64,000 bases of DNA from Pseudobdellovibrionaceae bacterium. Lineage in GTDB: Bacteria > Bdellovibrionota > Bdellovibrionia > Bdellovibrionales > Bdellovibrionaceae. This document shows positions 1,978 to 44,551 of this stretch, in pieces. The position numbers were made by a program, and so were the translations under genes. Within the stretch, counting starts at the first letter, position 1, and the number at the start of each line of letters is the position of its first letter. The stretch spans positions 2,884,565-2,948,564 of the forward strand of contig JAHBUV010000001.1 of the NCBI GenBank assembly GCA_019637915.1. Direction: 5' to 3'. The notes under the pieces are model-generated. The model had not been told where the DNA came from and did not search any database. It worked only from the letters and a program-made list of their open reading frames with translations.

Positions 1978-2025
1978 GATCCCCCGCGACTTCCGCCAGA
2001 CTGGGGGGAGTCCGGCAGGGGGAAC

Positions 2026-3279: not shown

Positions 3280-3382
3280 GGGCCTTTTCAAACAGGCGCC
3301 CGGGTCGGAGAAAGCTTTGCCGATTTCAAGAAATGGATTTTCCCTCTCAAGTCGGGAGGGGGCCCGCCGATAATCACTTCAT

Positions 3383-3871: not shown

Positions 3872-3941
3872 CCGTCCTTCCCGCAATCACCGGTTGAATC
3901 CGGCGCGGATTTCATTCAATGTGGCCGGGTGAGGGAACATC

Positions 3942-5938: not shown

Positions 5939-7483
5939 TCAATCCGGAGGCCTTCTTCCCGCCACGAAGCGAAGGCGTCGCTCGACGCCGATGTTCTCCA
6001 GGAAGTTCTCGTCGTGGGACACCACGATCAGGGCGCCTTGGAACTTCCGCAAAGCGGCCTCGAGGAATTCCACGTTCAGCACGTCGACGTTGTTCGTCGG
6101 CTCATCGAGGACCAGGAGCTGCGGCGCGGGATCGGCGAGCAGGGCTTTGGCGAGGGCCAGCCGCAGGCGTTCGCCGCCGCTCAAGGTACCGGCCTTTTGA
6201 TGGACTTTGTCGCCCATGAACAGAAAAGGCGCCATCAGGTTGCGCAAGGAGGCCGGATCCTTGCGGGCGGTGAGGGCGACGTTCTCGAGCAAACTCAGGT
6301 CGTCCTCCAGTTGCGACAGTTTCTGGTCCAGGAATTGGCCTTCGAGCGCGCCGGGTTTCAGCGAACCGCGGCGGGTGCCTTCGATCTTTTCCGGCTCGAG
6401 GAGCAGGCGCAGGAAGGTCGATTTGCCCGCGCCGTTGTCGCCTTCCAGGGCGATCTTGACCGGACCTCTCAGGGTCAGGTGCACGGGATCGCGCCACAGG
6501 TCCGCGCTGTCGCCGGGAAAGCGGAACAGGAAATCCTGCGCCTCGAAAACAAGTTTCGAGGCGGGGATCCTGGTCTCGGGAAACTCCGCGTACAATTGCG
6601 GCGCGGCCTTGATTCCTTCCAACGCCTCGCGGGTTTCATCCACGCGGCGGTGCAGGGCCTCCTGCGTTTGGTGGTCGATCTGGCCGGCCGTGGCTTGCGC
6701 CGCACGCTTGAGGCCACCGATCAGAATGCGGGGAAGTCCGCCTTTGTCGGCTTTGGCCTGGCCGCGGCTTTGACGCTTCTCCTGACGCTGGATCCGTTGC
6801 CCGCGCTCCTTTTCGGATTTCTTCACGGCGTTCTTCGAGCGCTCGAGTTTGGTCTCCCGGCGCCGGCGTTCCTGACGGCTCGCGCTGTCGTAGAAAGACC
6901 AGTTGCCGCCGAAAACGCTCAAGCCGCGGTTCGAAAGCTCGAGGATGACGTCCATCTCCTCCAGCAGCTCGCGGTCATGGGAAATGATCAGCAGGCCGTG
7001 GGGGCATTGCCGCACGAAATCCAGGAAGTGCCCGCGGTGGGTCCGATCCAGATTGTTGGTGGGTTCGTCGAACACCAGCCAATCCGCCTCCTGAGTGAAG
7101 GTCCGCGCCAGGCGCGCCCGGGTCCACTCGCCGCCGCTCAGGTCCGGGCATTTCGCCGTCAGCGACAGGCCGCCCAGCAGGGCCAAAGCCGGCGCCCGGT
7201 CCGGCGGGGACAGGCGCTCCCACAAAGGACCGAGGTAATCCCCCAAGAAAATCCCCGGCGCTTTTTCCGATTGCGCGAAAAAGCGGATGAGGCCATCGAC
7301 CCGCACGGATCCCGCGGTGGGCTCGAGCTGCCCCATCAGCAAACGGGCCAGCGTGGTTTTGCCCACGCCGTTCGGGCCCACCAGGCCGTGCTTCCGCCCG
7401 GGGTTCATCACCAGGTTCAAATTTTGGAAAATCACATCGCCCCGAGGGGTTTCATAACCCAGGGATTTGAGTCGCAGGGACAT
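5939..7483 (-). CDS. ABC-F family ATPase
   Basis: 514 residues with two ABC ATPase domains and no membrane segments, as in ABC-F proteins that act on the ribosome (translation factors or antibiotic-protection proteins). Domain 1 has Walker A VGPNGVGKTT and signature LSGGEWTRARLA. Domain 2 has GDNGAGKST and LSGGERLRLALA, each with a DEPTNN Walker B. The charged linker (around residues 210-260, very rich in Lys, Arg and Gln) is the expected P-site tRNA-interaction motif and is fairly long. The ATG has GAGG upstream. The subfamily cannot be set by eye. Confidence 0.88.
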   Translation of the reverse strand: MSLRLKSLGYETPRGDVIFQNLNLVMNPGRKHGLVGPNGVGKTTLARLLMGQLEPTAGSVRVDGLIRFFAQSEKAPGIFLGDYLGPLWERLSPPDRAPALALLGGLSLTAKCPDLSGGEWTRARLARTFTQEADWLVFDEPTNNLDRTHRGHFLDFVRQCPHGLLIISHDRELLEEMDVILELSNRGLSVFGGNWSFYDSASRQERRRRETKLERSKNAVKKSEKERGQRIQRQEKRQSRGQAKADKGGLPRILIGGLKRAAQATAGQIDHQTQEALHRRVDETREALEGIKAAPQLYAEFPETRIPASKLVFEAQDFLFRFPGDSADLWRDPVHLTLRGPVKIALEGDNGAGKSTFLRLLLEPEKIEGTRRGSLKPGALEGQFLDQKLSQLEDDLSLLENVALTARKDPASLRNLMAPFLFMGDKVHQKAGTLSGGERLRLALAKALLADPAPQLLVLDEPTNNVDVLNVEFLEAALRKFQGALIVVSHDENFLENIGVERRLRFVAGRRPPD

Positions 7484-7682
7484 AAGACCTCACAAGCCGC
7501 CCGATGAAAAAACGGGCGCGTTCGCGCGCTGAATTTCGGAATGGAATAAAGAGGGGTGAGGTGCTTACTTCTTCATCGGCGTCTGAATCGCTTCAGACCC
7601 GCCCAGTGTCACACGGATGAGCGGGGATTTCAAGGGGTGGCCCGGAACGAGACGGAAAGTGGGCGGGAGGGCGCGTCCGCGT

Positions 7683-8555
7683 TTACCGAGGGAAATCGCG
7701 TTCGAAAAGGACGTAGGCCCGGAAGCGGCGGAAGTTCAGGCGCCGGGCGGCGCTCATGAAGGGCACGAAGAGTTTCGCCCACCACGGCAGGGGCACGGGG
7801 CGGCCCAGGCGCAGGGATTCCTCATCCAGGTATTTGATGTCGCGGGGAACCCAGCCGTGGGTTTTGAAAAAACCGAACCAGTCCTCCGGGAAAAACACGA
7901 AGGGGGCGTTGCGCATCTGTTTCATGCGCGCCGGGCTTTGCAGGTGACGGTAGCTTTCTTTGGCGAAGTATTCGGCGATCCAGAACCGGAAACCGGGATG
8001 CGCGCGCAGGTCTTCGGCGAGTTCGGCCACCTGCTGTTCATGCAGGTACGGGATCACTCCCTCGGTGAGAACGAGGATTTTTTTCGAGCGCGCGGCGATC
8101 TCCCGCAGCAGGGCCTGGCGTTTCGGGCGATCGGCGAGATCGAGGGGCACGCGCTCCAGCCGGCATCGCGGTTTTTCCGCGCCCAGGATCTTTTCCTTGT
8201 GCTGGATCATATGCGGGTAATCGACTTCGATCCACAGCAGGGATTCCGGCAGGGCCATGCGGTAGGGACGCGTGTCGAGGCCCGCGCCGAGATTCAGCAC
8301 GAGGTCGACGTCGCCCGCGATGAGGTCCTGGATGTAGCGGTCGATCACGTGGGTGCGGATGGACAGCGACCAGGAGACCTGGCTGCCGACGGCCTTCATG
8401 CGCTCGGCGATCTGCCGGCCTTTGTCGCCCACCAAGGCCCTGGCGTAGGGGTCCTGGAAGAGGGCGTCGGGGCGCTCCGTTTCCACCGCGCGGTAGTGCG
8501 CCACCCACAGGGCCGTGTCGGAAACATGCTGGATGCTGCCTGAATCGTCGGACAT
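7683..8555 (-). CDS. SAM-dependent methyltransferase, leucine carboxyl methyltransferase (LCM) family
   Basis: 290 residues of the LCM/putative S-adenosylmethionine methyltransferase family. Residues 5-30 (VSDTALWVAHYRAVETERPD, then LFQDPYA) are the family N-terminal signature. The SAM-binding loop is LVLNLGAGLDTRPYR, followed by the acidic strand WIEVDYPHMIQHKEKIL. A third motif, LVLTEGVIPYL, is also typical. The methyl acceptor is unknown. Such proteins often act on small metabolites in actinobacteria and myxobacteria. A GGGAGAG stretch precedes the ATG. Confidence 0.8.
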   Translation of the reverse strand: MSDDSGSIQHVSDTALWVAHYRAVETERPDALFQDPYARALVGDKGRQIAERMKAVGSQVSWSLSIRTHVIDRYIQDLIAGDVDLVLNLGAGLDTRPYRMALPESLLWIEVDYPHMIQHKEKILGAEKPRCRLERVPLDLADRPKRQALLREIAARSKKILVLTEGVIPYLHEQQVAELAEDLRAHPGFRFWIAEYFAKESYRHLQSPARMKQMRNAPFVFFPEDWFGFFKTHGWVPRDIKYLDEESLRLGRPVPLPWWAKLFVPFMSAARRLNFRRFRAYVLFERDFPR

Positions 8556-8621
8556 GGCTCTCTCCCACCGGCCCTGGGGGCCGATGCTTCTTTTTACCTC
8601 AGAAGAAAAGCGGAGCGAAAG

Positions 8622-9005
8622 TCAAATCGGGGCCGGGGTCACGGCCGTGACTTGCAAGCGGCGCTGTTTGCCGTTGGGCATGGGCCACTGGATGCTTTGC
8701 CCCACGCTGAGGCCGATGAGGGCGGCCCCCAGGGGCGCGATGACGGACACCTTGTGGTCGTCGATGCTCGCCTCGTGGGGATACACGAGAGTGACCTGGG
8801 TTTCCTTGCCGGATTCCAGGTCCACGAAGGTCACCAGCGAATTGATCGCGACGACGTGGGACGGCAATTCGTCATCCGGCACCACCATGGCGCGTTGCAG
8901 TTCCTCCTCGAGGAGTTCCGCGGTTTCGGACGACGTGGCCGCCAGCAAGGCGGAAATTTTTTGGAAGGCGTCTTGAGAAAGTATGATCTTATCGGCATTT
9001 TCCAT
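8622..9005 (-). CDS. rnk: Rnk-like nucleoside diphosphate kinase regulator (GreA/GreB C-terminal family)
   Basis: 127 residues. The short N-terminal helical part and the C-terminal FKBP-like domain of the Gre superfamily are present: VTLVYPHEASIDDHKVSVIA, then PLGAALIGLSVGQSIQW. Rnk proteins bind RNA polymerase near the secondary channel and affect nucleoside diphosphate kinase levels in some proteobacteria. The N-terminal coiled coil is much shorter than in GreA, which favours Rnk. AAAGGAA lies upstream of the ATG. It is a single gene transcribed towards the methyltransferase. Confidence 0.8.
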   Translation of the reverse strand: MENADKIILSQDAFQKISALLAATSSETAELLEEELQRAMVVPDDELPSHVVAINSLVTFVDLESGKETQVTLVYPHEASIDDHKVSVIAPLGAALIGLSVGQSIQWPMPNGKQRRLQVTAVTPAPI

Positions 9006-9207
9006 GGAAAATTCCTTTCATGATTGAGGCGGAGTGTGCAAGCGAAGAAAACGGCGTGGTCCGAGCGAAAACCTCAGCCCGCCGTTAAGAAACGAACTTG
9101 AGAACCTTGCGAATGGAAGAAGAAGCGAACATCAGTTTCACACCGACAGGATAACAGAGATCGCCCGGGGATTCAATGGGCGAGATTTAAGGGGTTTTCA
9201 GGGCCGG

Positions 9208-9594
9208 TCATCGGCCCGGCGAGGGAAAGCGGTTTTCCAGCCACCTGACCCCGGGCCAGAAGGAGTCCAGGGAGCAATCCTTTTTGAGGGTGCTGAGGAA
9301 AAGGGACGAGGAAAGGGGATTCACCCGATTTTTCCGCCGCTGGAGCTCCCGCCAGGAGGCCTCGTCCGCTTCGCCGGAGGGGATCGGCTCGGGGTCGGGG
9401 TCTTGACGGGGATCCGGGTCGGCGACCGGCAGGGGTGAAAGGAATGAGGAGGCCCGCGATGTCCCGGCGGGTGCGGGTGCTTCCTTCATCTCGCTGGAAA
9501 AGGGGAAGGCGGGAGGATGCCTGCGTTCGGCAAAAAGGAAGAACGCCAAAACGAAAACGAACAAGATCAAAGAGAAAAAGATTGTTCGCTTCAT
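9208..9594 (-). CDS. Hypothetical protein with N-terminal membrane helix
   Basis: 128 residues. Residues 4-22 form a strongly hydrophobic helix. A Pro/Asp-rich linker follows (many DP repeats around residues 58-70), then a basic C-terminal part with two Cys-free helices and one isolated Cys. AGAGGG stands before the ATG. The low-complexity middle makes the call less certain. I do not recognise it. Confidence 0.45.
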   Translation of the reverse strand: MKRTIFFSLILFVFVLAFFLFAERRHPPAFPFSSEMKEAPAPAGTSRASSFLSPLPVADPDPRQDPDPEPIPSGEADEASWRELQRRKNRVNPLSSSLFLSTLKKDCSLDSFWPGVRWLENRFPSPGR

Positions 9595-9829
9595 GGGGCC
9601 CTCTTTTCAGGGAAGCTCCGGCGGGAAGGATTTCATGAACTGATTTTGATTTTCGGTGAAACGAACCGGAGGGTCAAGGCGAGGCCGAAGCCTTGGCCAT
9701 GGCCGTGTTCCGTGCCATGAGCAATGTGAGGTCGGTGATTATCACCATGCGTTACTCTTGTTCTCGGGCACTTTCCTTGTTGGCAGGTCCTTCATAAACA
9801 GGAAAAATTCAAAGTCACCAGGAGTGTTG

Positions 9830-11214
9830 ATGACGATGACGAAGGACATGCCCTTTGGGCGGAAGATATTCATGCTTTTCGCGGGTCTGGTGGCCATCGT
9901 CATCGCCGCCTCCCTGGTGGTGGGGACTCTGTATTACAAAGTCAATGTCCAGCAGTCCGAGCTTCTTGAGCAGAGGCTGTACTCTTTCGCGCAGATCCGT
10001 CACCTGATCAGTCTGGCGCAGAAGGTGGAATCGTCCGGGGCGCACTTCATCATCACCGGGGGAATGCCCGCCTTCCAGGATTTCCTGGCCGCCCATCAGA
10101 TCTTCGACAAAGAGATGCGCGCCGCCGTGGCGGATCCGCGTTTGGCGGATCACCGACCGGCGCTCGAGTCCCTTCTCGAGGAGGGGAGGCGGACGAGGAT
10201 CTGGGCCGGCCCCATTTCACCGCCCGCCTGAGGGGGAAGATCTCCGCCGAAGAGACGGGGCGTCTTTTGAACGAGGCCGGGCGCCCGAGCCTGTTGAAGC
10301 TGCAACGCGGGCTGAAGGAACTCGAGGGCGAGATCGAGAAGGACTGGCGCGAATCGGCCGTCGGCGCCGCCGATCTGAAGGAGAACGCGGCGGTGGTGCT
10401 CTTCGCGGTGGCGATCTGCAGCCTGCTCACGGTCGCGGTGCTGTTCCTTTTCCTGCGTTCCCTGGTCGAGCAGAAGAAGATGATGGACCTCCGGCGCGAG
10501 GAGATCTCCCGGGCGCGCAAGGAGATCGTGGAAGTGGTCGCCCACGATCTGCGCAATCCGTTGAGCCTGATCCGGATGAGCCTGATCCGGATGAGCCTGA
10601 TCCGGATGAGCCTGGAGGTCCTGTCCGATCCCGAAAACGACGAGGACAACGGGGAGGTTCTGGGGATCGCCCAGCGCGGGGTGAAGCAGGCTTTCGAACT
10701 GATCGGCCTGATCCTGGATCACGCGCGGCTTGAAACGGGGGGACTCATCATCCAACGCCATCCCTGTGATCTGAAGGAGTTCCTGAACGAACAGAGCGTG
10801 CTGTTCACGGGCCTTTGCGCCGAGAAGAAAATCAAACTGGAGATCGACTGCTCGACGCTCCGGGACATGATCCCCTGCGACCGCGTCCGCATCAGCCAGG
10901 TCCTCTCGAACCTGATCGGCAACGCCGTCAAGTTCTCCCCGAAAGAAAGCCGGATCATCGTGTCCGCCGAGACCCTGGACGACGGCCACGTGGTGGTGTC
11001 GGTGCGGGATCACGGCCGGGGAATCCCCGCGGAGGCGAAGCAGAGGATCTTCGATCGCTACTGGCAAACCGGAAAAGGGGAGTACTCCGGCATCGGTCTG
11101 GGCCTGGCCATTTCCAAGGGCATCGTCGAGGCCCACGGCGGGCGCATCTGGGTGGAGGACGCGGACGGCGCGGGATCGCTGTTTTATTTTTCGATGCCGT
11201 CCGGTGAGAGTTGA
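9830..11214 (+). pseudogene. CHASE3-type sensor histidine kinase interrupted by a one-base frameshift
   Basis: Two frames together make one kinase. The first (ATG 9830, ribosome site AGGAG at 9820-9824) gives a membrane helix, then a CHASE3-like periplasmic helix bundle, and stops at 10231. The second takes over near 10183 and runs to 11214 with a second membrane helix, the DHp box HDLRNPLSL, N box NLIGNAVKFS, G1 DHGRGIP and G2 GIGLGLA. Adding one G to the GGGG run at 10183-10186 restores a continuous protein of about 460 residues. The gene is a pseudogene, a sequencing error in a homopolymer, or a -1 frameshifted gene. The DHp helix also carries a repeated pentapeptide. No response regulator is adjacent. 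Confidence 0.75.
10564..10614 (+). repeat. 15-bp tandem repeat (3.4 copies) inside the kinase DHp helix
   Basis: The unit AGCCTGATCCGGATG occurs three times in perfect register from 10564 to 10608, plus a partial AGCCTG to 10614. It encodes SLIRM three times directly after the phospho-acceptor box HDLRNPL. One unit would give the normal sequence leading into SLEVL, so two units (10 residues) look like extra copies. Confidence 0.95.
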
Positions 11215-11476
11215 TCGGACCGAACTGCCGCCAGCTTTTGTTTTCTTCCGCAGTTTAGAACTGTGATGTTGGAATTTCGTAGTGCTCAGCTAAATAACTC
11301 AATAGAGGCTGTGCTGAGAGGTGGGGACTGTTGAAAAGTGCCCTGAACATCTATGGATTCAAGCATGGTCTTATGATCACTTCTTTTTGAGATGAAAAGA
11401 AATAAAGCTGAAAATAGGTCATGAGCGAACTGGATTTGATGTGATTTTAACGGCTTAGTGGCCTAGGCGACGATGG
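11215..11476. other. AT-rich intergenic stretch without a visible gene
   Basis: These 262 bases between the kinase and the GNAT-like gene are clearly richer in A and T than both neighbours. I see no reading frame with a ribosome site, no terminator and no RNA gene. It may hold regulatory sequence or the remains of inserted DNA. Confidence 0.5.
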
Positions 11477-12415
11477 TCATTTGACGTAAATCACGGCGAC
11501 GATTTGGCGCTTCATAAGGCGGCTGAGGTGCTGGATCGCCGGCTGGGACGTCCCGCCCCAGAACGTCCGCACTTTCCGACGGACGAAAAATTCCAGAAAA
11601 ATCCGATAGCCGGTTTTAGTGATTCCCTGCCCATGGATGGAGGGATGGAGAAAAAACGCCAGGCTGCCGGTTCTTTCCCCGGGGCGATCCCCCGGATGGA
11701 TGGTGGCCGCCATCAAACCTCGCAACCGTGAGCCTTGGTAAACACCGAGCAACACGCCTGATTTTTCTTTGAGAGCTTCGCGGTAGCATTTGAGATCTTC
11801 GCGCAGCTGCTTCGGGGTGTGGGAGAAGTAGCCATGCCTCTTGAATTTCAAAATCACGGATTTTTGCAGTCGCATGGCTTCCTTCAGCTGAGAAGCCGAG
11901 GTCAGCCTCACCAGGTTCAGGCCCGCGTGTGTGAGATCGCGGGGCGGATCTTTCCGTTGGCGCAGGTTCCGCAAGGCGACCTTCGTATCGCCCTTGAGGA
12001 TTTCGTAGCGATTCTGAAAACCTGCGGCGAGGAGAACGGAGCGGTACAGTTTCTCGTCCCCGGGCATCAGCGTCGCCACCGTGGCGCGGGGAGCGGCCGC
12101 GCCCAAGGACCGCAGTTGTTCCTTGATCCACGCGCGGGTTTTTCTGGAGGTCTTTTCCCGATCCATCATAAAAAACAGGGCTTGTTGGTTTTTAATCCGA
12201 GGCCGGTTGGAAGGGATGCGATAGACCACCGCGACGGGTTTGGAGCGGGCCCGGAGCACCCGCAGAGAACGGTTCTTTGCCGCGGTTTTCAAGATGATCC
12301 CCGCCCGCCCGGCCAAGAAGGCTTTCTCTTGGCGTGTGAGTTTTTTCGCGCCTTGAACGCGTTGCTGCTCTTGGCCGAGCCAGTCGGCGAGGTGTTCCTG
12401 CAGGTCTTTGTCCAT
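11477..12415 (-). CDS. GNAT-like acyltransferase domain protein
   Basis: 312 residues. The C-terminal half (about 175-300) looks like a GNAT fold: GVLLGVYQGSRLRGLMAATI (strands 2-3), then GSLAFFLHPSIHGQGITKTGY, where the Gln-Gly turn with a following helix fits the acetyl-CoA site, and a last strand FWGGTSQPAIQHLSRLMKRQ. The N-terminal half may be a second, degenerate GNAT domain or a partner domain; it is basic. GGAAGG precedes the ATG. Substrate unknown. Confidence 0.6.
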   Translation of the reverse strand: MDKDLQEHLADWLGQEQQRVQGAKKLTRQEKAFLAGRAGIILKTAAKNRSLRVLRARSKPVAVVYRIPSNRPRIKNQQALFFMMDREKTSRKTRAWIKEQLRSLGAAAPRATVATLMPGDEKLYRSVLLAAGFQNRYEILKGDTKVALRNLRQRKDPPRDLTHAGLNLVRLTSASQLKEAMRLQKSVILKFKRHGYFSHTPKQLREDLKCYREALKEKSGVLLGVYQGSRLRGLMAATIHPGDRPGERTGSLAFFLHPSIHGQGITKTGYRIFLEFFVRRKVRTFWGGTSQPAIQHLSRLMKRQIVAVIYVK

Positions 12416-25336: not shown

Positions 25337-26140
25337 ATGGTCCGACGAAAAACCACAATCATCAAGCGCTGGAAGCAATTCCTTGAAATCGCATCCGGCG
25401 AAGTCACCTTCCTCAATCACTATGCCGAGGTCAGAGCGCAGTTCAATTTGATCGCGAGCCAGTCCCCCGTCGCTAACGTCGGCAGTGAATTTTGGACCTT
25501 CGTAACTCAGGCTTTTGCGCACGAGATGATCTTCAGAATCTCCCGTCTTACGGAGGGTCAGTTCAAAGATCGCAAAGGGCGGGTTCTGAAGCATCTGGAA
25601 GTCTCTTCACTGACAGCGCTGCTTGAGGAGTTTGCGGAGCATCCTGAGTACCTTTCTCGTGCGCAGTACCTAGGGGTCAGCCCTGTTACGTTTGAAGAGT
25701 ATCTGAGAAAGCATCCGAGCCGCTTCGATCCGCCTGACCGTTATAACTACGATCGCCTTAACCGAGAGTTTGATGACCTTGCCGGTAAAGGCGCGAACCA
25801 TATTGCCGCCGCGGTCATACAATCCGATCTGGCAACTTTAGGGAAAGTCACCAAGCGGCTTAAAGCATACAGGAACAAACGCCTGGCTCATCTGTCCGTC
25901 AAGCGCGGTCGATTTAGGAATCCGAAAATGACCGAAATCACCCGGGCGATTACGGAAATTGATCGCTTCATGCGGAAGTATTTTTTGGCTTTGAACTGTG
26001 CGAGTCACCCGCTTGAATTTGGCCACGTCGACATCACAGACATCTTCTTGAAACCTTGGATCAAGAACGAGAACAACCAAAAAGAGCTCCAGCGAAGATT
26101 TGAAAAAGCACGAGAGCGGCAAAGGAAAAAGCGTTCATGA
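25337..26140 (+). CDS. HEPN (AbiU2-like) putative ribonuclease
   Basis: 267 residues, helical and basic. Residues 52-71 (FWTFVTQAFAHEMIFRISRL) and RNKRLAH at 179-185 (R-x5-H, the HEPN catalytic motif) match the AbiU2-type HEPN layout. HEPN RNases act in many phage-defence and toxin systems by cutting tRNA or other RNA. The stop overlaps the start of the next, nuclease-like gene (ATGA), so both are made from one message. The promoter is its own. It may be toxin, effector, or RNA-binding partner. Confidence 0.6.
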   Translation: MVRRKTTIIKRWKQFLEIASGEVTFLNHYAEVRAQFNLIASQSPVANVGSEFWTFVTQAFAHEMIFRISRLTEGQFKDRKGRVLKHLEVSSLTALLEEFAEHPEYLSRAQYLGVSPVTFEEYLRKHPSRFDPPDRYNYDRLNREFDDLAGKGANHIAAAVIQSDLATLGKVTKRLKAYRNKRLAHLSVKRGRFRNPKMTEITRAITEIDRFMRKYFLALNCASHPLEFGHVDITDIFLKPWIKNENNQKELQRRFEKARERQRKKRS

Positions 26141-32504: not shown

Positions 32505-33563
32505 TCAAAGACCGAGATAATTCTGCCAGAATCTCTTGTTGTCCAGGTTTGGTTGGAAGTCGTTCTCATCTTCAAACAGGTCGAAGAAGTCCGATGCAGC
32601 TTCGCTCTCTAGAAATTTCTTGATCCGCGTAATCGCGCTGTTGAGGCGTTTTACCTTCGGGTCATCGAGGTTGGGCTCGATCGTCTTGTTGTCTTCGTCG
32701 ACGCTAAGGTAGCCTTCATCATGGGCGTCGTCGATCCTGGTATCCCAATTTTCCGGCCAGTACCTTTTTCCGGAGTACAGGTAGTAGAAGGCCGTGATGA
32801 CGATCTTCGGTAGCGCTTCGTAGTGCTTGTCGTACATTTTGATGTACTCATCAAATTTCTTTTGATCCGGCAGGTTCTCAAGAAGAATTTTCTTTTTGTC
32901 CCCCGGTGTTTTCGCAGAAGCCAGCTTCTTGTTTATCTCGATTTGAGCCGCAAGCTGAGCTTCGAGATCGCCGTAGCTCTTTTTATATTCAGATAGTTCA
33001 TCGACGACTTTCTGATAGCTCGCAAAGTCCACTTTTTTCGGCGCTGGCTGTTTATTTAGCAATGCTTGGACTTGCTCGATGAATTCCTTCTTCTTGCGAG
33101 TCCATGTTGGGGTGGCGTTGCCACTGATCGACAAGTCATTCTTTAGGTCATCAAACATCACATCTAGGTCTTCTTCCACATCGACCTTGATGGCTTGTCG
33201 GCCCAGCAAGACGGCTCCGACATCACTTTTCTTCAGCGGGGGAACAACCACTGGATAGGGGTCTTTTGCAAGGGTCCAAGCGCCGCCCAACTCAGCGATC
33301 GAAAAAATGCTTTCGTAGTAGTTGCTTGAAAGCAGCGAGATTACGACATCTGCTTCAATCAACGCGGACTTGATCTTTTCAACGAATCCCTTTCCCGTGC
33401 TGATGCTGTTTCCTGGTAATGATGAACAAAAGATTTGAGTGGTGCTGACCCCGACGCCTGAGACAAGCAAATCAACGAGCTTGTGGGCAATCGTTTCGTT
33501 TGCGACCGAGTGACTGATAAAAATGCGGACTTTATTGGGGTTTTCAACATTCTTTTTCATCAA
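32505..33563 (-). CDS. TIR-domain protein (putative NAD-cleaving defence effector)
   Basis: 352 residues. Residues 12-150 are a bacterial TIR domain: VRIFISHSVANETIAHKLVD, IFCSSLPGNSISTGKGFVE, and the catalytic-type Glu 91 in SIFSIAELGGAW. A coiled coil (about 190-230) and an unknown C-terminal domain (about 240-352, YDKHYEALPKIVITAFYYLY) follow. TIR effectors in Thoeris, CBASS or Pycsar systems deplete NAD on infection. Here no SIR2, cyclase or ThsA-like gene is next to it; its partner is the upstream gene at 33624-34343. Low G+C. Confidence 0.85.
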   Translation of the reverse strand: MMKKNVENPNKVRIFISHSVANETIAHKLVDLLVSGVGVSTTQIFCSSLPGNSISTGKGFVEKIKSALIEADVVISLLSSNYYESIFSIAELGGAWTLAKDPYPVVVPPLKKSDVGAVLLGRQAIKVDVEEDLDVMFDDLKNDLSISGNATPTWTRKKKEFIEQVQALLNKQPAPKKVDFASYQKVVDELSEYKKSYGDLEAQLAAQIEINKKLASAKTPGDKKKILLENLPDQKKFDEYIKMYDKHYEALPKIVITAFYYLYSGKRYWPENWDTRIDDAHDEGYLSVDEDNKTIEPNLDDPKVKRLNSAITRIKKFLESEAASDFFDLFEDENDFQPNLDNKRFWQNYLGL

Positions 33564-35740: not shown

Positions 35741-36103
35741 GTGGATTCGTACACCAAAGCATTGATCGAACGGCGAGCTCTTCAACTCGCCAAGGTCTGC
35801 GAGCGCCTCTTGCTCGAACAAGAGGCGGACGACATCGCGGCCGCTGGCTTTCGTTGGGGCTACCTAATTCTACGCAAGCCGAAAAGGTACCTTGAAGAAT
35901 TCCGTCACGGAACCCTTCTGATCGACCCGGACGCACTTCGGGACTCCTTCTGGTTCAACCAGGAGGTCATCGAGGGTCCCGCGGGATTGATGCCCGAAGA
36001 AGAACTCATTCTCAAAGAATTCAACGACGAGGCAACGGCTTGGATGAAAAATAATTCTAAAGTCATCAGCCTCGTTCGCACCGAACACAACACCTACCGC
36101 TAA
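35741..36103 (+). CDS. Hypothetical protein in the tyrosine-recombinase operon
   Basis: 120 residues, starting at GTG with GAAGGAGGA upstream. It is acidic and soluble, with a helical N-terminus (ALIERRALQLAKVCERLLLE) and aromatic middle (RWGYLILRKPKRYLEEF). No family recognised. Confidence 0.6.
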   Translation: MDSYTKALIERRALQLAKVCERLLLEQEADDIAAAGFRWGYLILRKPKRYLEEFRHGTLLIDPDALRDSFWFNQEVIEGPAGLMPEEELILKEFNDEATAWMKNNSKVISLVRTEHNTYR

Positions 36104-36121
36104 AAACAAGAAAGGAAATCT

Positions 36122-36928
36122 ATGACTTCATCATCATTGGGCATGGCCGAGCTTTGCTTGAAGCACTACGACCGTCTCGCAGAGGAGCGCGGTGGCTTCG
36201 GAGGCTGGCGTCCGCGGCTCCTCGAACTCTCGCCCCGATGGCAATGGTATTCGCGGCTGATTTTCTTCAAAGAGATCCCGAAAGACCCATTTCCGCAAAT
36301 CCACTTCATCGATGACCACGACGGACGAGCTCGCCGTCTCGTCGATTCCTGCCTTCGTCCTTTTTCGGACGTCGGCATGGACGAACTACTCAAGTTCTTG
36401 TTGAACCGTTTCGGGTATAGCGAATGCCGCGACCTGCCCCCTTTGATCAAAAAACACCACGTTGAACATTGGGAAGCGACGTTTGACGTTGCAACCGCGA
36501 TCTCGCTCGATCGCGATGTGTTCGGCGATGCGTATAGCGATTGCATGGGCAAGGGCTTGCGCAGCGGAACTGGTTATTTCCCGACGCCGATCAGCGTTTG
36601 CCGTTTGATTGCAGACATGACTCTCACGCAAGCCGATCTGTTCAGCACCGTGCATGACCCATGCGTAGGCAGCGGTCGGATGCTTTTACCCGCGAGCAAC
36701 AGGAGTCTTTTTCTCTCGGGCATGGACGTAAACCCGGTCTGTATTCGTATGACACTTGTGAACGGATTTCTGTTCGCGCCGCAGATCGTGATTCCGCCGC
36801 CGGCAGAACTCCGTCCTCAAAAAAGTCGAAAAGTCGTCATCCCGCGGAACACGCTCATGCGCTTGTCTGCGGAGCTCGAGGAGGTCGGTCATGGAAGCAC
36901 TACTCGTCGCTTTCAGTCTGCTCATTGA
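36122..36928 (+). CDS. N6-adenine methylase-like protein lacking the NPPY motif
   Basis: 268 residues. The start of an HsdM-type methylase domain is visible: GYFPTPISVCRLIADMTL (motif X) and VHDPCVGSGRMLLPAS (motif I, SAM-binding), then LSGMDVNPVCIRMTLVNGFL (motif II). The catalytic (N/D)PP(Y/F) motif IV and the target-recognition region are absent; the protein ends 60 residues later. It may bind SAM without methylating DNA, or be a truncated relative. AAGGAAATC precedes the ATG. The next gene starts inside its last 38 bases. Confidence 0.65.
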   Translation: MTSSSLGMAELCLKHYDRLAEERGGFGGWRPRLLELSPRWQWYSRLIFFKEIPKDPFPQIHFIDDHDGRARRLVDSCLRPFSDVGMDELLKFLLNRFGYSECRDLPPLIKKHHVEHWEATFDVATAISLDRDVFGDAYSDCMGKGLRSGTGYFPTPISVCRLIADMTLTQADLFSTVHDPCVGSGRMLLPASNRSLFLSGMDVNPVCIRMTLVNGFLFAPQIVIPPPAELRPQKSRKVVIPRNTLMRLSAELEEVGHGSTTRRFQSAH

Positions 36929-37256
36929 AGCCGACATCAAGAAAATGAGTGATGAGGCCGCTATCCAAAAACTGCTGGAAATCCTAAAGGCGTCTGATCC
37001 ACTTGTGATGACAACCAGAAACGGGCCGATGTTGCTGGCGCTCTTGCGTCGTTATGGCCTCGTCGCCCCCTTCTGCGGACAAGAGCGGCTTGATACCGTC
37101 GACCCACAACTGGTCTGTGAGACGCTCGTCGAGTTCGAGCGTTTTCGGGCGAAGGTCATCCGTTTTTACGAAAAAACCCAGGAAACATATCAACCCATCT
37201 GTAAGCCAAAAACGACCGATGAAATTTCCAAATCGAAAGGAGATCACACCCGATGA
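36891..37256 (+). CDS. Hypothetical helical protein before the recombinase
   Basis: 121 residues with GGAGG just upstream of the ATG. The start lies 38 bases inside the methylase-like gene in another frame, and its end overlaps the recombinase start (ATGA). It is helical, with no signal peptide. Not recognised. Confidence 0.6.
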   Translation: MEALLVAFSLLIEADIKKMSDEAAIQKLLEILKASDPLVMTTRNGPMLLALLRRYGLVAPFCGQERLDTVDPQLVCETLVEFERFRAKVIRFYEKTQETYQPICKPKTTDEISKSKGDHTR

Positions 37257-38200
37257 ATAGCCTGCCATCGAAAATTGAAAATTCTATGCTACATATGGAA
37301 AACGACCTGCCGGCGTTGATCACGCGGTACTTCCAAGAGGAGGTCGTCGGTCGATCACCGCACACACTGTACGCGCGGAAGATCGACCTATCTAAGTTCT
37401 GTTTGTTCTATCAGAACCTCAACGGACATCTTCGGGCTCGTGAGCTGATGCCGAGAGATGTAAAGCTCTTTCTAAATGAGCTTGAGTCCCGCGGCTACGC
37501 GCCGAACTCGATCAACCGGCACCTGGGCTCGGTCCGAGCCCTCGGGTCCTGGCTTCTTGAAAACGGGATCGTCCGTGTTCATCCGTGCAAGTCCATCAAG
37601 GATCTTCATGTCGAGCTTGGCCCACCAAAAGCTCCACGCGATCGTGAGTATCATCGCCTTCGCAAGACGGCCGACGTGCTTGCGGAAGCGTCGCCTTACG
37701 AGTATTCGCAGGACTTCCGAAATCTTGTGCTCTTGGAGACGTTGGACTCAAGTGGCCTTCGCATCAGCGAACTGCTGTCGATCCTGCTGAACCAGTTCAG
37801 GGACCGCAAGTTCCACAACGTGAAGTGTAAGGGCGGAAAAATCCGATCGCTTTCCATCAAGACGGATACTTGCGAGCTGATCCAGGAGTACCTCAATCAC
37901 CACAGGGTTCCCGGGAGTGACTTCTTGTTCACGTCGAAGACCGGGCAGCAGTTGGACCGTGTCAGCGCGTGGAAGGCTCTAAAGAGACTCGCACGGATCG
38001 CCTCGGCGAACCTGCCCGCGGAGGAACAAATTCATCTTCATCCCCATATGCTGCGGCATCGACACGGATACAAAGCGCGAAAAGCGAAAGATGCGGTCTT
38101 TGCAGCGACACGTCTCGGCCACAGCTCGCTCAACTTCGTTCAGAGGTACACCCAGGAAACCGTCGAAGAAGAGCGCGACCTCATCGAAAATATGGATTAG
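37253..38200 (+). CDS. Tyrosine recombinase (XerC/D-like integrase)
   Basis: 315 residues. N-terminal SAM-like core-binding domain (TLYARKIDLSKFCLFYQNLN), then the catalytic domain with Arg in SSGLRISELLS, Lys in KCKGGKIRSL, H-x-x-R in HPHMLRHRHG, His in LGHSS and the nucleophile Tyr in FVQRYTQE. All catalytic residues are present. AAAGGAG lies upstream. Length and sequence fit integrases of integrative elements as well as Xer proteins. It ends in a 4-base overlap with the convergent helicase. Confidence 0.92.
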   Translation: MNSLPSKIENSMLHMENDLPALITRYFQEEVVGRSPHTLYARKIDLSKFCLFYQNLNGHLRARELMPRDVKLFLNELESRGYAPNSINRHLGSVRALGSWLLENGIVRVHPCKSIKDLHVELGPPKAPRDREYHRLRKTADVLAEASPYEYSQDFRNLVLLETLDSSGLRISELLSILLNQFRDRKFHNVKCKGGKIRSLSIKTDTCELIQEYLNHHRVPGSDFLFTSKTGQQLDRVSAWKALKRLARIASANLPAEEQIHLHPHMLRHRHGYKARKAKDAVFAATRLGHSSLNFVQRYTQETVEEERDLIENMD

Positions 38201-38241
38201 CGTGGAGCGAGATCGAGGGGTTTGAATTCCTCGATCTTTAC
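38180..38241. repeat. Junction repeat, left copy (recombinase/helicase 3' ends)
   Basis: These bases contain the last codons of the recombinase and of the helicase. They align with 43879-43940 over about 60 bases with one 2-base gap: the runs CTCATCGAAAA, CGAGATCGAGGGG and CCTCGATCTT are identical. The two copies are direct repeats that enclose the three-gene operon. Confidence 0.75.
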
Positions 38242-40794
38242 CTCGCCCGGATCGGCAATGTGCTCCTCGATTGCGGCCTGGCTCTTCACGCTCAGCAGAC
38301 GCTCAGAGAACTGCGACCGCAAATGGACGCGACTCAATACGCGCTCGTCATAGGTAAACGGCCAAACCAAGTGATGAACTCGGATCTTGTGCGCAACTTC
38401 GTAAGGGGCGATCGCAAAACGCGCCATCAGCTCTTTCTTGTTCCGGGGACGATCGATTCGACCTGTCTTTTGCTCGAGGTCATGGGGTGTCCAGCTCGGA
38501 GTATAGTGAACTACGTCCCAGCAATACTCATGAAGATCAACCCCCACCGTGCATATGTTCGTAAGAACCAGAACTTTGGGATTTCCCGGCGTGAGGAAGC
38601 GCGACGTGATCGAACTGCGCGATTTCGAGTCGTCTCCAGTTTGCACCGCAACTTCCTTGATCGCTCGAGCGTTGTGCGCCTGAAGTTTTGATGATAGCTC
38701 CAGTTGTCTCAAAATACGGCTCGGTCTTTGTGCCGCGTACTCTTGCCAAGCGTCGTCCTGCTTGAACGCCTCGTCATACGCGTCAGCAACACGCTCAAAG
38801 ATGCCTTCGATAGTGGATTGATCGCGCTTTCCAACATGAAGACGAAGATTTTGCAGCATGACGAGATCGGATCGGACTTTAGTGCTGAACCGCTCTCGTT
38901 TTTTTTCATTGGAAATGTGCCGCGGATCGAGAATGTCCACGGCGACCTTTCTTGTCTTTGGTCGCTTGCGAGCCTGTTTGTCGTCAAAATCGATGATTCG
39001 TTCAAGCCCGAGCCGCTTCAGAATATGGTTCCGAAGCTCCGGCCAGGTGTTGAGGGCGTGGAAATGTTTCTCACGGCGCTTGATTTTTTCCAGCCCCGAG
39101 ATCGTCTTACGGAAGCTCTCGATTTTTGAGTTCGCAGGTGAACGGTGGGCATTCACGCAGGCCGCGAGGTAAAGGGTCAAGTTTCTCTCGATCAAATCGT
39201 CAACTGCGAAGCCCTCATCCTTCATGACTTCGGCAAGTTTTCGACTCGGAGAGCGCCAGTCGTTGTTCAGAAAGAGCGCCTTGTTTTTAGCTTCTGTCGC
39301 AATTTTCGATAGCGTCCCTTTCATCAGCCCTTTAAGCGTTGAGTTGAGCCTCTTGCCAAGAAGACGTGCCTCGGCCTGGTTGCGTGCGCGATGTGTTCGG
39401 AAATCAAAAGCCGTTTCGCGGTGGTGAACGTAGACCAACACCTTGAAGGAAAAACGGTCGGGATTCCTTTGTGTCAGCCAGCGATTTTCAGTTTTTTTGT
39501 AGTGATCGCAAAACCATTTAAGAAAGCCATCCTGCTTGGGATGAAGATCGTTAAGGTCATCCGGTCCTCGTTCCGTGATCTTGCTCCAAGCGGGAAAGAA
39601 TCTGGCATCTTGTTGGCTTTGCTTTTTATTTTTCGTTTCAAGAGTCCAACGCATGAAGCGGATCAAGTTTTGTTTGGCCTCCTGGCAGCTCCAATGCTGG
39701 GCCTGGAGTTCTTTTAAGACGTCATCAAATTTTCGTGAGACCGGGAAACGGTTCGCTTCGACAGACGTACCTGCGGTCGCTTGGCCTACGGGCCAGAAGT
39801 GATACTCTCGATCTGGTTGGTTTGGTGTGCGGACCAAAAGTTCCCGCAAACCCGTTTCGAGGGCGAACTTTGCTCGGTTGTAGTCTTTCAGATCCTCTCT
39901 ATGAGTACTTCGACTCGGATCAAGTCCGTTTTTCAGCGCTTGCTGTAACTTGTGGAAGTCATCATGGTTGAGCAGTCCATCCACAGTATTTGAGCTGAAG
40001 TCGAACGACGGATCCAGCCATCCGTAAGCGAGCTTGATGAGCGCCCATGTATCAACGATGTCTCGGGAAAGAAGAGTCGCCGATAGGCAAATCAACCAAG
40101 GACGTTTACGGTTGCTGCTCCAAGGGCTGATTTTGCTATCGTTTGGACGTAAAATCCTCCCGTAGATCGAGTCATCGTTTCGCGCGCCAAACACTTCGTC
40201 GGCAATCACAATGTCGGCATTCTTGAGCCAAGACCACCAAAAGGGATCACGGCCGCGACCGCTTTTCATCCAGTACGGAGTTGTGACAAGAATTTCAATA
40301 CGAGAGTGGCGACTCTGCTTCCTCGGTCGCAAGACGGGATTCGGCTTATCGCCGTAGTCAGACGAAAGGTTTTCGATACAACGCTTGCCCTTGAATCGAT
40401 AGACCACGACATCTGGAGCATTCCTAGATTTCATCTCAGGGAGATAAGTGTCGAAAAAGGAATCCTTATCTGGAAGGGAGGCCAGGTTTTCGCCAATTCG
40501 GTTTTTTGCGGGCACAAAGGGGCCATTCAGCTTCTTCAGCCAACTGCCACTGAGATCGTTGTTCGGACTGATGATCAGAATTCGGAAGACCGGCTTCTTC
40601 TTTCGCTGTTGCCGCCACCGTCCGATTGCTACAGAAAGTGCGATGTAGGATTTCCCTCGTCCGACGGCGTCCGCAATAAAGTACACACCTTGCTTCTTCA
40701 AGCCAGTCCACACCGATGCGATCGTTTTGTTCTGGGCTCGCGCCATTGGCGCGCCGATGGCTTTCGTCGAAATGTGTACTGGCCCTTTACTCAC
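38197..40794 (-). CDS. Superfamily 2 helicase of an unnamed three-gene operon
   Basis: 865 residues. Walker A is VGRGKS (residues 44-49) in FIADAVGRGKSYIALSVA, Walker B is IVIADEVF, motif III LSATLLSRD, motif V NICTVGVDLHEY and motif VI DLEQKTGRIDRPR, so both RecA-like lobes are complete. A long insertion (about 330-640) of charged helices separates them. The start overlaps the stop of the PLD gene by ATGA. Helicase-nuclease pairs of this kind act in DNA-targeting phage defence. It is neither the UvrD-type nor the Upf1-type helicase of several known systems. Confidence 0.85.
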   Translation of the reverse strand: MSKGPVHISTKAIGAPMARAQNKTIASVWTGLKKQGVYFIADAVGRGKSYIALSVAIGRWRQQRKKKPVFRILIISPNNDLSGSWLKKLNGPFVPAKNRIGENLASLPDKDSFFDTYLPEMKSRNAPDVVVYRFKGKRCIENLSSDYGDKPNPVLRPRKQSRHSRIEILVTTPYWMKSGRGRDPFWWSWLKNADIVIADEVFGARNDDSIYGRILRPNDSKISPWSSNRKRPWLICLSATLLSRDIVDTWALIKLAYGWLDPSFDFSSNTVDGLLNHDDFHKLQQALKNGLDPSRSTHREDLKDYNRAKFALETGLRELLVRTPNQPDREYHFWPVGQATAGTSVEANRFPVSRKFDDVLKELQAQHWSCQEAKQNLIRFMRWTLETKNKKQSQQDARFFPAWSKITERGPDDLNDLHPKQDGFLKWFCDHYKKTENRWLTQRNPDRFSFKVLVYVHHRETAFDFRTHRARNQAEARLLGKRLNSTLKGLMKGTLSKIATEAKNKALFLNNDWRSPSRKLAEVMKDEGFAVDDLIERNLTLYLAACVNAHRSPANSKIESFRKTISGLEKIKRREKHFHALNTWPELRNHILKRLGLERIIDFDDKQARKRPKTRKVAVDILDPRHISNEKKRERFSTKVRSDLVMLQNLRLHVGKRDQSTIEGIFERVADAYDEAFKQDDAWQEYAAQRPSRILRQLELSSKLQAHNARAIKEVAVQTGDDSKSRSSITSRFLTPGNPKVLVLTNICTVGVDLHEYCWDVVHYTPSWTPHDLEQKTGRIDRPRNKKELMARFAIAPYEVAHKIRVHHLVWPFTYDERVLSRVHLRSQFSERLLSVKSQAAIEEHIADPGEVKIEEFKPLDLAPR

Positions 40795-42569
40795 TCAAGA
40801 ACCTCCAGCAAGGCACGAGCCAGCAGAAGCTCGTTTGAGGGCTGGCCGTGACGGATAAGTGAGCGCAGTCGCTTCTGAATACGTGCGATGTCTTCTTTCG
40901 ACTGGATTTGGCTCAAGGCTTTGGTGAATTTGACCGCTTCCGGCAGGTGGTTGTATTCAGCCTCCGTACTCAGCGACGGAATAGAGAAGCTCTCCTCGTT
41001 GTTCGTTTCATCGTCCTCTTCGTCCTCAACGTCAGGATCAACGACGACACGGCCTTTAATCGGCCGCACAATCGGCCGTCCGCGGCCAAGAAGAGAATCG
41101 AGATCAAGGGCCGTCTCCGTCGGAAATCCTGTTTCCGGATCACGCTCCTCAAAATTAGGAAAGCTCTGAATCACAGGAGCTTTCATAATGTGGCCGTCCC
41201 TCAGGGTGACGATGATCGCCAGATGTTCGGGCACGGTGTCGATGCGATCGTTGGTCCGCTCCCAACGAATGTGCTGATCGGTGAAGGCCGGTTTCCTCCA
41301 CGCTTTGGGATCTAAAAAATCAGCTTCTATTTTCTTTAACTTCGCGACTTCAAGGCGGGATTGTTTGGTGTGGATCTCATCGCGCCGTTTATCATGCTCA
41401 ACATCCCACTTGACGTCATTGACGTGCGTCGCTTTTTCACTGTGCCTGAGTTCGAGAGTCCCGTGCGTTTCGTCGTAAGTCGCCCAGAAAATCATAGGCT
41501 GCGCCGGCAAAGTGTCGTCGTCCTCAAGGGCAGGCGTCGCTTTGATGAGCTTCTCAAGACGGGAGACCTTCACTTCCTCCAGGCGAACGGCTTCGGGTGG
41601 CTGTGGGATGGCCTTTACAATGCCTACGAATTCATGATTGCCACGCATCCACGCTGCTGCCGTGAAATTGGCAGAGCCGTAAACGGTACAGCCACGGCCT
41701 GATGAATCCAGGAACTCAATCGTCTTGGCGTGGAGCGGAAACCACTCCTTCAGTTTGTGGTTGGGCTCAAGATCGCTACGAACAAAAGATAGAAACTTGA
41801 CCCTCGTTATGTCCCTGAGCGCGAGAGCCCGCTCAAGGTGTTTTCGTCCTGCTAAGGCCCCGGAGAGGTCAAGCACCACTTCGACCTGATCCGGCTGTGT
41901 ATGGATCAGAATTTCCTGAAGAAGAGCCTTTGACCCGTCATCAAAATACGGCGAAGTGATTCGCACGGTCTTGATCATTCCGACCTGCTTCGCGCACTCC
42001 TTCCAAATCAACAATCGGGTATCCGCTTTCTTTTTCTGCGAGCCATCGAGCCAATACACCAATTTGGTCTTTGAAGACTTCAGTCGTTTTGTCCAAGACG
42101 ATAAGAACGATTCTTTCAGATGTCCTTTGGACAAATAGAGAAGGAAGTCTTTGATCGCAGGCTCCGCTGTGCGAGCGTTCCAGTTCCATGTTTCGAGATT
42201 GCGTAGCCAGCCCGATTTCGTGAGATTAGCAGATCCGATCCCGACAAGAAGATCCTTTCGCCCTTCGTATTCGCAAACGACGAACTTGCCATGGAAAACA
42301 GTGGAGCTTTCAAGAAAGAAGAGACGAAAGCGCCTTTCAAATCCACACCAAGCGCTCAGTTCATATTGATCGCCGAAGCTCGGTAGATCCTTTTGGTCAA
42401 ACTTCGATGCCACCACCAAGACTTCGCAGTCCGATGTTCCTGCTCGATTGATGTAAGGAAGGACGTTATTGTGAAACCAGTAGAAATTGAACTGATAGGT
42501 AAAGAAAAAGACCCGCTTGATGCGTTTGCGGCTGGCCCAGACGTATCCCAAAGAGTGCTCAATTTTCAT
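40791..42569 (-). CDS. Phospholipase D-fold nuclease of the three-gene operon
   Basis: 592 residues from the ATG at 42569 (AGGTG six bases upstream). Two HxK motifs are seen: HGKFVVCE with GSANLT (residues 93-117) and HAKTIEFLD with GSANFT (280-303). This is the arrangement of PLD-type nucleases such as restriction enzymes of the NgoFVII/BfiI type. The first motif has Glu where Asp is usual. The C-terminal 250 residues are acidic and unlike known domains. It overlaps the upstream gene by 11 bases and the helicase by 4, so the three are co-translated. Confidence 0.82.
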   Translation of the reverse strand: MKIEHSLGYVWASRKRIKRVFFFTYQFNFYWFHNNVLPYINRAGTSDCEVLVVASKFDQKDLPSFGDQYELSAWCGFERRFRLFFLESSTVFHGKFVVCEYEGRKDLLVGIGSANLTKSGWLRNLETWNWNARTAEPAIKDFLLYLSKGHLKESFLSSWTKRLKSSKTKLVYWLDGSQKKKADTRLLIWKECAKQVGMIKTVRITSPYFDDGSKALLQEILIHTQPDQVEVVLDLSGALAGRKHLERALALRDITRVKFLSFVRSDLEPNHKLKEWFPLHAKTIEFLDSSGRGCTVYGSANFTAAAWMRGNHEFVGIVKAIPQPPEAVRLEEVKVSRLEKLIKATPALEDDDTLPAQPMIFWATYDETHGTLELRHSEKATHVNDVKWDVEHDKRRDEIHTKQSRLEVAKLKKIEADFLDPKAWRKPAFTDQHIRWERTNDRIDTVPEHLAIIVTLRDGHIMKAPVIQSFPNFEERDPETGFPTETALDLDSLLGRGRPIVRPIKGRVVVDPDVEDEEDDETNNEESFSIPSLSTEAEYNHLPEAVKFTKALSQIQSKEDIARIQKRLRSLIRHGQPSNELLLARALLEVLE

Positions 42570-43818
42570 CAGAGTCACCTTTGCGATACTTGGGGCTCTC
42601 GTAGAGTGTGAGGGACGCGCCGAAACGATAGCCGAAAAGGCCCCAGCGGCCGGCGGTGAGTTCGAGGCTGAGCCTGTCGAAGACCTGATTCACACGATCG
42701 GCCTTATGAAGCTCCTCAAGGTATATGGACCCCGGCTTGTTTTGAATTTTACAGTAGGTGTTGTGCAGTCGAACCAAAGCCGGCAGCAGTTTTTCAGACG
42801 GAAGGTCCGCGAGGTTTGTAATAAGGGTTCCGTCGTGCAGTTTTGCGAGTTGATCGAAGCTGTATGTGCTGCTCTGGTCATCGAGGACATCCTTGATAGA
42901 TTCAGACCAGCCTTTGAAGAATCCTCGTCGAAAATGGATTTCGTGAAGCTGAAGACCATGGGCCACGACGTCGCGGTAGGCGCGCGTCTCCGATCCACTC
43001 TCTTTGCATTGAAGACAGGCCAATAGGAACTCTCTAAGAAGCCGCGGCTCTTTGAGGCCACTTCGCTTCGGAATGGAATTTTTGAAGCGCACACACTGGA
43101 TCGCAGCTTCAAAGGTCGTTTGCCAGACGGTCAGCGCAAACTCCAAACGACGAGCGAGCTTGATAGAATCGGAGACGCCTCGTGCTGGAGCTTCGAGACC
43201 TGTTATCCACCAGTAATGGAGTTGGTTGTCGAGAATGCGAGAGAGGTTGCCGGAATCGATGTTGTCTTGAATTGCATAGCCACGATCTCGATACCAAGTC
43301 GCGTTCACAATTCGAGTTTCTCGCTGAACGGAATTTTTCTCCCAGGGCTGACCTTTTCGCGGCGTGTAGTTAGGGTCAAAAATGAGTCGGCGGTAGCCAG
43401 GAAGTCCGCCAAGGGCTTTCGGTGAGGTCAGCATGTTGAAGTGATTGAGGAGTGATCCGTAGCGCTGCCAGTAAGTCATGCGCTGTCTGTATCCGCGCTT
43501 AGAATCTGATGCGATAATGCCACTGCGGGCAAGGGATGTCAGCACGTGAGCGACGCGCACATCGGTTCCTTTGCCGCGAAACTGGGCCCAGTTGGGCCTT
43601 TTGCGATTCATTTCGTCGATCGCTACAGAGTGCAATGCGAGGACATCAAAGAGATCGCGGGTCAGCACGGTGATGCCCGGAAAAAGAACATTTCCCCAGC
43701 GAGACGTTAGGGACATGAACCCCAACGCCGATCGAATTGATTCGCCCTTCTCAAAGGGCTCTACATAAAACAACATAGCGGTTTTCTTAGGGTAAACCAT
43801 CACCGCTGACGGGTCCAC
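42559..43818 (-). CDS. Unknown first gene of the PLD-helicase operon
   Basis: 419 residues with a GTG start (AAAAGGAC upstream); ATG at 43800 is an alternative. No P-loop, nuclease or membrane motif is visible. The N-terminus (KTAMLFYVEPFEKGESIRSA) looks like a strand-helix unit, and a possible winged-helix region follows (VRVAHVLTSLARSGIIASDS). It might serve as a sensor or specificity subunit. It overlaps the PLD gene. Confidence 0.65.
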   Translation of the reverse strand: MDPSAVMVYPKKTAMLFYVEPFEKGESIRSALGFMSLTSRWGNVLFPGITVLTRDLFDVLALHSVAIDEMNRKRPNWAQFRGKGTDVRVAHVLTSLARSGIIASDSKRGYRQRMTYWQRYGSLLNHFNMLTSPKALGGLPGYRRLIFDPNYTPRKGQPWEKNSVQRETRIVNATWYRDRGYAIQDNIDSGNLSRILDNQLHYWWITGLEAPARGVSDSIKLARRLEFALTVWQTTFEAAIQCVRFKNSIPKRSGLKEPRLLREFLLACLQCKESGSETRAYRDVVAHGLQLHEIHFRRGFFKGWSESIKDVLDDQSSTYSFDQLAKLHDGTLITNLADLPSEKLLPALVRLHNTYCKIQNKPGSIYLEELHKADRVNQVFDRLSLELTAGRWGLFGYRFGASLTLYESPKYRKGDSDEN

Positions 43819-43869: not shown

Positions 43870-43971
43870 TTACCGGCCCTCATCGAAAAGATGGACGAGT
43901 GTGGCGAGATCGAGGGGACTGAGCCCCTCGATCTTCTCCGGCCGCGGTAGAGCCTTAATTAAGATAGACAT
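43870..43971 (-). pseudogene. 33-codon remnant matching the helicase C-terminus
   Basis: The frame ends KIEGLSPLDLATLVHLFDEG and one Arg, then stop. The helicase at 38197 ends VKIEEFKPLDLAPR. The small frame starts within the last codons of the RHH-YfbU gene and has no clear ribosome site, so it is more likely the tail of a lost helicase than a gene. Confidence 0.5.
43879..43940. repeat. Junction repeat, right copy
   Basis: Aligns with 38180-38241 in the same orientation. The hairpin GATCGAGGGG/CCCCTCGATC (43908-43933) is within it. Confidence 0.75.
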
Positions 43972-44551
43972 CTGTCTGAACATTAAACTTACGAGTAATT
44001 GACCGTGCTTCGCTAGGATGATCCATCTTCTTCAAGAGGGATTTCCAAAAAGCATCATCAAAAAGGTCTTTCAGGAACATATAACGACACGCAATGATCA
44101 GCGAGGAACGGTCCCAAGAACTCCGACCCGAGCGTACGGCATAGTAATCCTCAAGTTCGTAAAATGAAGGGACCTTTTTTTCTCTCCAGCATTCATCGAG
44201 GTGCTTTGAGAGTTCTTCGATCGACGCCCGAGAAATCTTGAACTGATCTGCAAACGGCACATGGTGATCGGCCCCGTCATCAAAGAGCGGATACACTCCA
44301 CTTTCCCACGCATAAACATAGCCTTCAGAGAGTCCATTACCGATTCCCTTTGTTTTTGCGGCGGTAAGGATCTGGAATCGCATGATTTGAAACAGCTGAC
44401 GATTCTCCGGGCTGCCAAGGCCCAAGTTGAGCAGCCTACGTACTGCTTCGGACCTATTGGGTAGATCCGACTGCTCGGAACGCCACTCATCAATACGATT
44501 CAGAATCTCAGTTTCTAACCTAAGTTCAAATCTTTCAGTTTTAACTTCCAT
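43955..44551 (-). CDS. RHH (CopG-like) DNA-binding protein with YfbU-like domain
   Basis: 198 residues. The N-terminal ribbon-helix-helix is RFELRLETEILNRIDEWRSE, then NRSEAVRRLLNLGL. The C-terminal part ends IIACRYMFLKDLFDDAFWKS, then LLKKMDHPSEAR, which matches YfbU. E. coli YfbU has been linked to mazF-mediated cell death. GAGGGGG precedes the ATG, and phased TACGG repeats upstream suggest autoregulation. It may control the PLD-helicase operon, which lies downstream on the same strand. Confidence 0.75.
   Translation of the reverse strand: MEVKTERFELRLETEILNRIDEWRSEQSDLPNRSEAVRRLLNLGLGSPENRQLFQIMRFQILTAAKTKGIGNGLSEGYVYAWESGVYPLFDDGADHHVPFADQFKISRASIEELSKHLDECWREKKVPSFYELEDYYAVRSGRSSWDRSSLIIACRYMFLKDLFDDAFWKSLLKKMDHPSEARSITRKFNVQTDVYLN

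Follow-up and report, generated by a model that had tools for sequence, protein, structure and literature searches.

A rare, putative Azaca-type anti-phage operon with a diverged first gene in a Pseudobdellovibrionaceae genome

The window, that is, the whole stretch of 64,000 nucleotides analysed here, contains three adjoining minus-strand genes (A, B and C, 38197-43818) that we interpret, with a probability of about 0.75, as an Azaca-type anti-phage system of the order A-PLD-helicase, which belongs to a separate clade, is nearest to PDC-M27, a candidate system of PADLOC, and would act as an ATP-dependent DNA-cutting complex. Judged by its sequences, the operon is a rare, formerly unlabelled branch of the Azaca-type systems, placed beside PDC-M27 and apart from Azaca. 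The initial annotation had proposed a DNA-targeting anti-phage operon, a claim that we retain as probable. The observations that carry the interpretation are the gene order, the homology of B and C, their intact catalytic motifs, the clade membership, and the co-occurrence of the three genes.

Gene order and conserved motifs

The operon consists of gene A (42559-43818, minus strand, 419 aa), an open reading frame without any model match, gene B (40791-42578, minus strand, 595 aa from a GTG), encoding a PLD-superfamily nuclease homologous to ZacB and PDC-M27B, and gene C (38197-40794, minus strand, 865 aa), encoding an SF2 helicase (DrmD/SNF2-like) homologous to ZacC and PDC-M27C. The reading frame calls bear out the three overlapping genes described earlier. 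The overlaps amount to 20 bp between A and B and 4 bp between B and C, therefore all three genes are probably translated together. Gene B can alternatively be read from an ATG at codon 4, resulting in 592 aa. The start of gene A is uncertain and may, judging from the sequence, be located further inside the frame, at M7 or M15; the frame of one relative opens at the position of M15.

Gene B matches the PLD-superfamily model PF13091 of Pfam (2.6e-11) as well as the PADLOC models PDC-M27B (2.2e-12) and ZacB (1.3e-11). The two HxK-GSAN motifs reported for this protein are found as HGK (residue 96) followed by GSAN (115), and as HAK (283) followed by GSAN (301). Gene C matches PDC-M27C (9.1e-25), ZacC (7.9e-18) and, more weakly, DrmD (3.6e-11). 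Its SF2 motifs are located at residues 45 (GRGKS), 198 (ADEVF), 238 (SAT), 745 (TNICTVGVDL) and 775 (QKTGRIDR), and 537 residues separate motifs III and VI, confirming a long insert (approximately 500 residues) between the lobes. The motif residues of both proteins, x positions aside, are invariant in two relatives of 32-41% identity, so the genes are real and under constraint. PADLOC, named as a check in the initial annotation, matches B and C with the PDC-M27 and Azaca models, and A with none. The predicted structure of gene B, based on an alignment of three sequences, is a poor model (pLDDT 53). Its best Foldseek match is Tdp1 (E 5.5e-5), which is consistent, at the level of such a model, with a single chain made up of two catalytic halves. 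A search for solved structures that match gene B or gene C by sequence found none.

The ZacABC system of PADLOC, which corresponds to Azaca as described by Millman et al. 2022, consists of the DUF6361 protein ZacA, the PLD protein ZacB and the helicase ZacC. The literature likewise describes ZacC as the helicase of Azaca and a PLD domain as part of the system (PMC12278908, PMC10952713). A search with the ZacA model retrieved a clear Azaca locus (L019; ZacA 3.8e-52, DUF6361 1.2e-17, ZacB 2.8e-91, ZacC 3.9e-196) and a diverged one in the window's family (L020), and a search with the PDC-M27A model retrieved three acidobacterial loci (L014, L015 and L016) with the order PDC-M27A-PLD-helicase. Operons of the type DUF6361-PLD-helicase are also present on bacterial plasmids and on the plasmid of one haloarchaeon. 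Since Azaca and PDC-M27 share the gene order of the window operon, the layout is not new, contrary to the initial annotation, according to which it matched nothing known. Nor are the paired HxK motifs of the PLD protein and the long insert of the helicase novelties, as had been assumed: two HxK motifs per PLD chain are common to the window type, PDC-M27 and Azaca, and the gap between motifs III and VI comprises 534-669 residues over the helicases of all three groups. We note that locus L020 (1824-9707) is a strongly diverged Azaca, whose ZacA match reaches only 2.2e-10 in a protein of 509 aa.

Distribution and the diverged first gene

Clear relatives of gene A occur in only two other genomes, a metagenome assembly of Terriglobia (Acidobacteriota; L002) and a genome of the window's own phylum (G229). 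No further clear relatives of gene A were found in 297 genomes around the former and 368 genomes around the latter, and no stand-alone copy of helicase C was found among 197 relatives. Neither A nor B has relatives in the plasmids searched, nor B in the phages, and the viral contigs yielded none for any of the three proteins. Co-occurrence of the three genes elsewhere had been suggested as a check: all three genomes (that of the window and those with L002 and L004) keep them side by side in one order, and their neighbours include defence genes. In the trees of B and C, these three loci form a clade of their own (100/100), whose sister is PDC-M27 with a support of 100/99 for B and 99/98 for C. 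In the tree of gene B, the window clade and PDC-M27 are jointly separated from the 13 Azaca rows (100/99). The branches are long, and the tree tool warns that long branches meet here, so that the separateness of the window clade is better assured than the exact order of branching.

All Pfam, NCBIfam and PADLOC models fail to recognise gene A (E > 1), in agreement with its earlier description as an unknown gene. The protein carries, at its N-terminus, the DUF6361/ZacA-like signature LGFMSLTSRWGxxLFPGITVLTR. In a comparison with a DUF6361/ZacA profile of 11 sequences by hhalign, columns 23-55 of gene A align with columns 23-54 of the profile, that is, at the same offset (score 32.1, P 0.0023); the aligned stretch reads RSALGFMSLTSRWGNVLFPGITVL in gene A and RDELGLGTVRDGLADLLFPGTSTI in DUF6361/ZacA. 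None of 400 column shuffles of gene A against DUF6361 reaches the score of 32.1 (best 25.9; Gumbel P approximately 2e-4). Outside the N-terminal stretch no alignment with DUF6361 was obtained, and the full-length profile comparison is not significant. The description of the first gene as unrelated was therefore overstated in view of the shared N-terminal signature, although the comparison does not establish homology over the full length. The corresponding comparison with PDC-M27A gives no such signal (hhalign P 0.1, probability 0.6%; 1 of 60 shuffles equally good). The predicted structure of gene A, from an alignment of three sequences, has a pLDDT of 44 and is therefore too weak for an argument at the level of folds. 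A marginal fragment resembling gene A in L052 (E 0.00995, one stop) was left out of the relatives.

Based on the N-terminal signature, the similar length and the position in the operon, we consider with moderate confidence that gene A encodes a diverged ZacA-like subunit. Its lack of significant full-length similarity to either DUF6361 or PDC-M27A would also fit a wholly new subunit in place of ZacA, making the clade a hybrid system, not a diverged Azaca. We regard such a replacement as rather unlikely, given a signature at the same offset in a protein of similar length and in the same place of the operon.

Genomic surroundings and mode of action

The relatives of the operon have defence genes as neighbours. 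In L004, the genes form a single run AddB-AddA-A-B-C (AddAB-like pair at 6086-11895). In L002, the operon is accompanied by an AddAB-like pair (1932-4577, with L006 60-2984), a TmtA-like protein and a PglW/PglX/PglY-like set, the latter being BREX-like by our reading of the sequences. An AddAB-like pair also flanks Azaca in plasmids of Rhizobium sullae and Sphingomonas, and the pair of L002 is 38-42% identical to these. The pair, consisting of a PD-(D/E)XK protein and a UvrD helicase, recurs beside Azaca and Azaca-like operons across different phyla (among them pairs at L024 834-6886 and L028 467-5475). This recurrence suggests that the AddAB-like genes are an accessory module of Azaca-type systems. 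The single run in L004, the pair beside L002 and a recombinase that adjoins the window operon could also be expected if A, B and C were a module for DNA repair or recombination instead of defence, working together with the AddAB-like helicase-nucleases and the tyrosine recombinase. We consider such a role very improbable: the distribution is patchy (1 genome besides that of the window among 291 relatives and, by the helicase, none of 197 others), and the homologues are catalogued as defence systems.

Further genes were observed in the vicinity of such operons. To the left of the window operon, an AbiU2-like HEPN gene and a TIR-domain gene (25337-26140 and 32505-33563) are possibly further defence genes. 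Upstream of gene A, a 198-aa protein (43955-44551) with a weakly NikR-like (ribbon-helix-helix) N-terminus is, by this resemblance, a possible regulator. In L023 (3507-14951), an Azaca operon separates the restriction gene of a type I restriction system from its methylase/specificity genes.

For an Azaca-type system of this composition, we infer the following mode of action. Proteins A, B and C would form one complex, in which A may either recognise a feature of the invading DNA or gate the complex. The helicase C would hydrolyse ATP and translocate along the invading DNA, and B would cut it as a two-lobed PLD nuclease whose two HxK halves build one active site. The complex would thus resemble CglI and NgoAVII, which are ATP-dependent restriction enzymes of the PLD type, minus the methyltransferase. 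In both, the PLD nuclease joins with an SF2 ATPase to cut DNA once the ATPase has translocated at the expense of ATP (PMC4267653, PMC5737866). The literature searched yielded no published mechanism of Azaca.

The window operon is devoid of a methyltransferase to mark self DNA, although an N6-methyltransferase-like gene is found in the adjoining recombinase module. The missing self-marking would suit a sensor of genome integrity with an abortive outcome, in which the helicase, like HamB in Hachiman, responds to DNA that is damaged or being replicated and sets free the PLD nuclease, which then degrades all DNA, with A as inhibitor or adaptor; in Hachiman, the helicase is indeed the sensor and the nuclease the effector (PMC12278908). 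The Hachiman (HamAB) models, however, match none of the three proteins, and AddAB-like neighbours are compatible with DNA degradation in either case, hence we consider this mode less probable than cutting of invading DNA by the complex.

The recombinase module consists of four plus-strand genes (35741-38200): three genes at 35741-37256, encoding proteins of 120 aa, 268 aa (N6-methyltransferase-like) and 121 aa, followed by the tyrosine recombinase (37253-38200), which is convergent with gene C and overlaps its end by 4 bp. Members of the recombinase family occur in 5 of 148 genomes, one of them beside the Azaca-like locus L020; the four-gene module is whole in L041 and partial in L039 and L020. 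The recombinase beside L020 is 63% identical to that of the window. In L039 (7531-8907), another, different PLD-like gene adjoins the same recombinase family.

A direct repeat of 60 bp brackets the operon (copies 82% identical, E 6e-10). The left copy (38179-38238) takes in the end of the recombinase gene together with a palindrome, and the right copy (43878-43935) is located upstream of gene A, likewise with a palindrome (stem of 10-11 bp). As the left copy also encodes the conserved C-terminus of the helicase, site-specific recombination and an earlier duplication of the junction are equally likely. Beside the other recombinases a second copy of the repeat was not found, and when a sister genome was compared to look for an empty site, the alignment comprised only the tRNA end and one further short stretch. 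We mention as quite improbable a capture of exchangeable defence operons by the recombinase, at a palindromic site that spans the 3' end of its own gene; A-B-C would then be a cassette between two copies of the site, integron-like but with a different kind of recombinase module.

Comparison with known defence systems

Several systems combine a PLD domain with a helicase or ATPase. Mokosh does so, and was rejected as an assignment, as it is absent from the model matches of B and C and differs in layout. DISARM resembles the window operon in its PLD nuclease (DrmC) and SNF2-like helicase (DrmD), the latter being matched by gene C, but the window operon contains no DrmA, DrmB or methyltransferase; membership was rejected, since the scores fall far short of the curated cut-offs (DrmC 25 of 133 bits, DrmD 42 of 610 bits). 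NgoAVII and CglI likewise pair a PLD nuclease with an SF2 ATPase. Their nucleases, however, build one active site by dimerising, and in B a single chain holds two HxK motifs; membership was rejected since B reaches 16.1 bits against the RE_NgoFVII model (cut-off 23.8) and the operon has no methyltransferase.

Azaca shares with the window operon the gene order, the homology of ZacB and ZacC, the N-terminal FPGxT signature of ZacA, and the company of AddAB-like genes and recombinases, but the ZacA and DUF6361 models miss gene A, and B and C of the window belong to a separate clade. PDC-M27 agrees with the window operon in the A-PLD-helicase order, gives the top model matches for B and C, and is the sister clade in either tree; its PLD protein likewise has two HxK motifs, and its helicase a long insert. 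It differs in a helicase of 1150-1161 aa (865 in the window), a PLD protein of 677-763 aa (595 in the window), and a PDC-M27A that is not significantly similar to gene A, its model giving no match.

The layout of the operon is therefore ordinary, and its interest consists in a first subunit that has diverged, an AddAB-like partner that recurs, and a repeat on either side. Defence catalogues miss such systems once the first gene has diverged. As a third, compact clade (helicase and PLD protein as given above), the window type narrows down what every member needs, namely a PLD protein with two lobes, a helicase that contains a long insert, and a first subunit that bears one signature.
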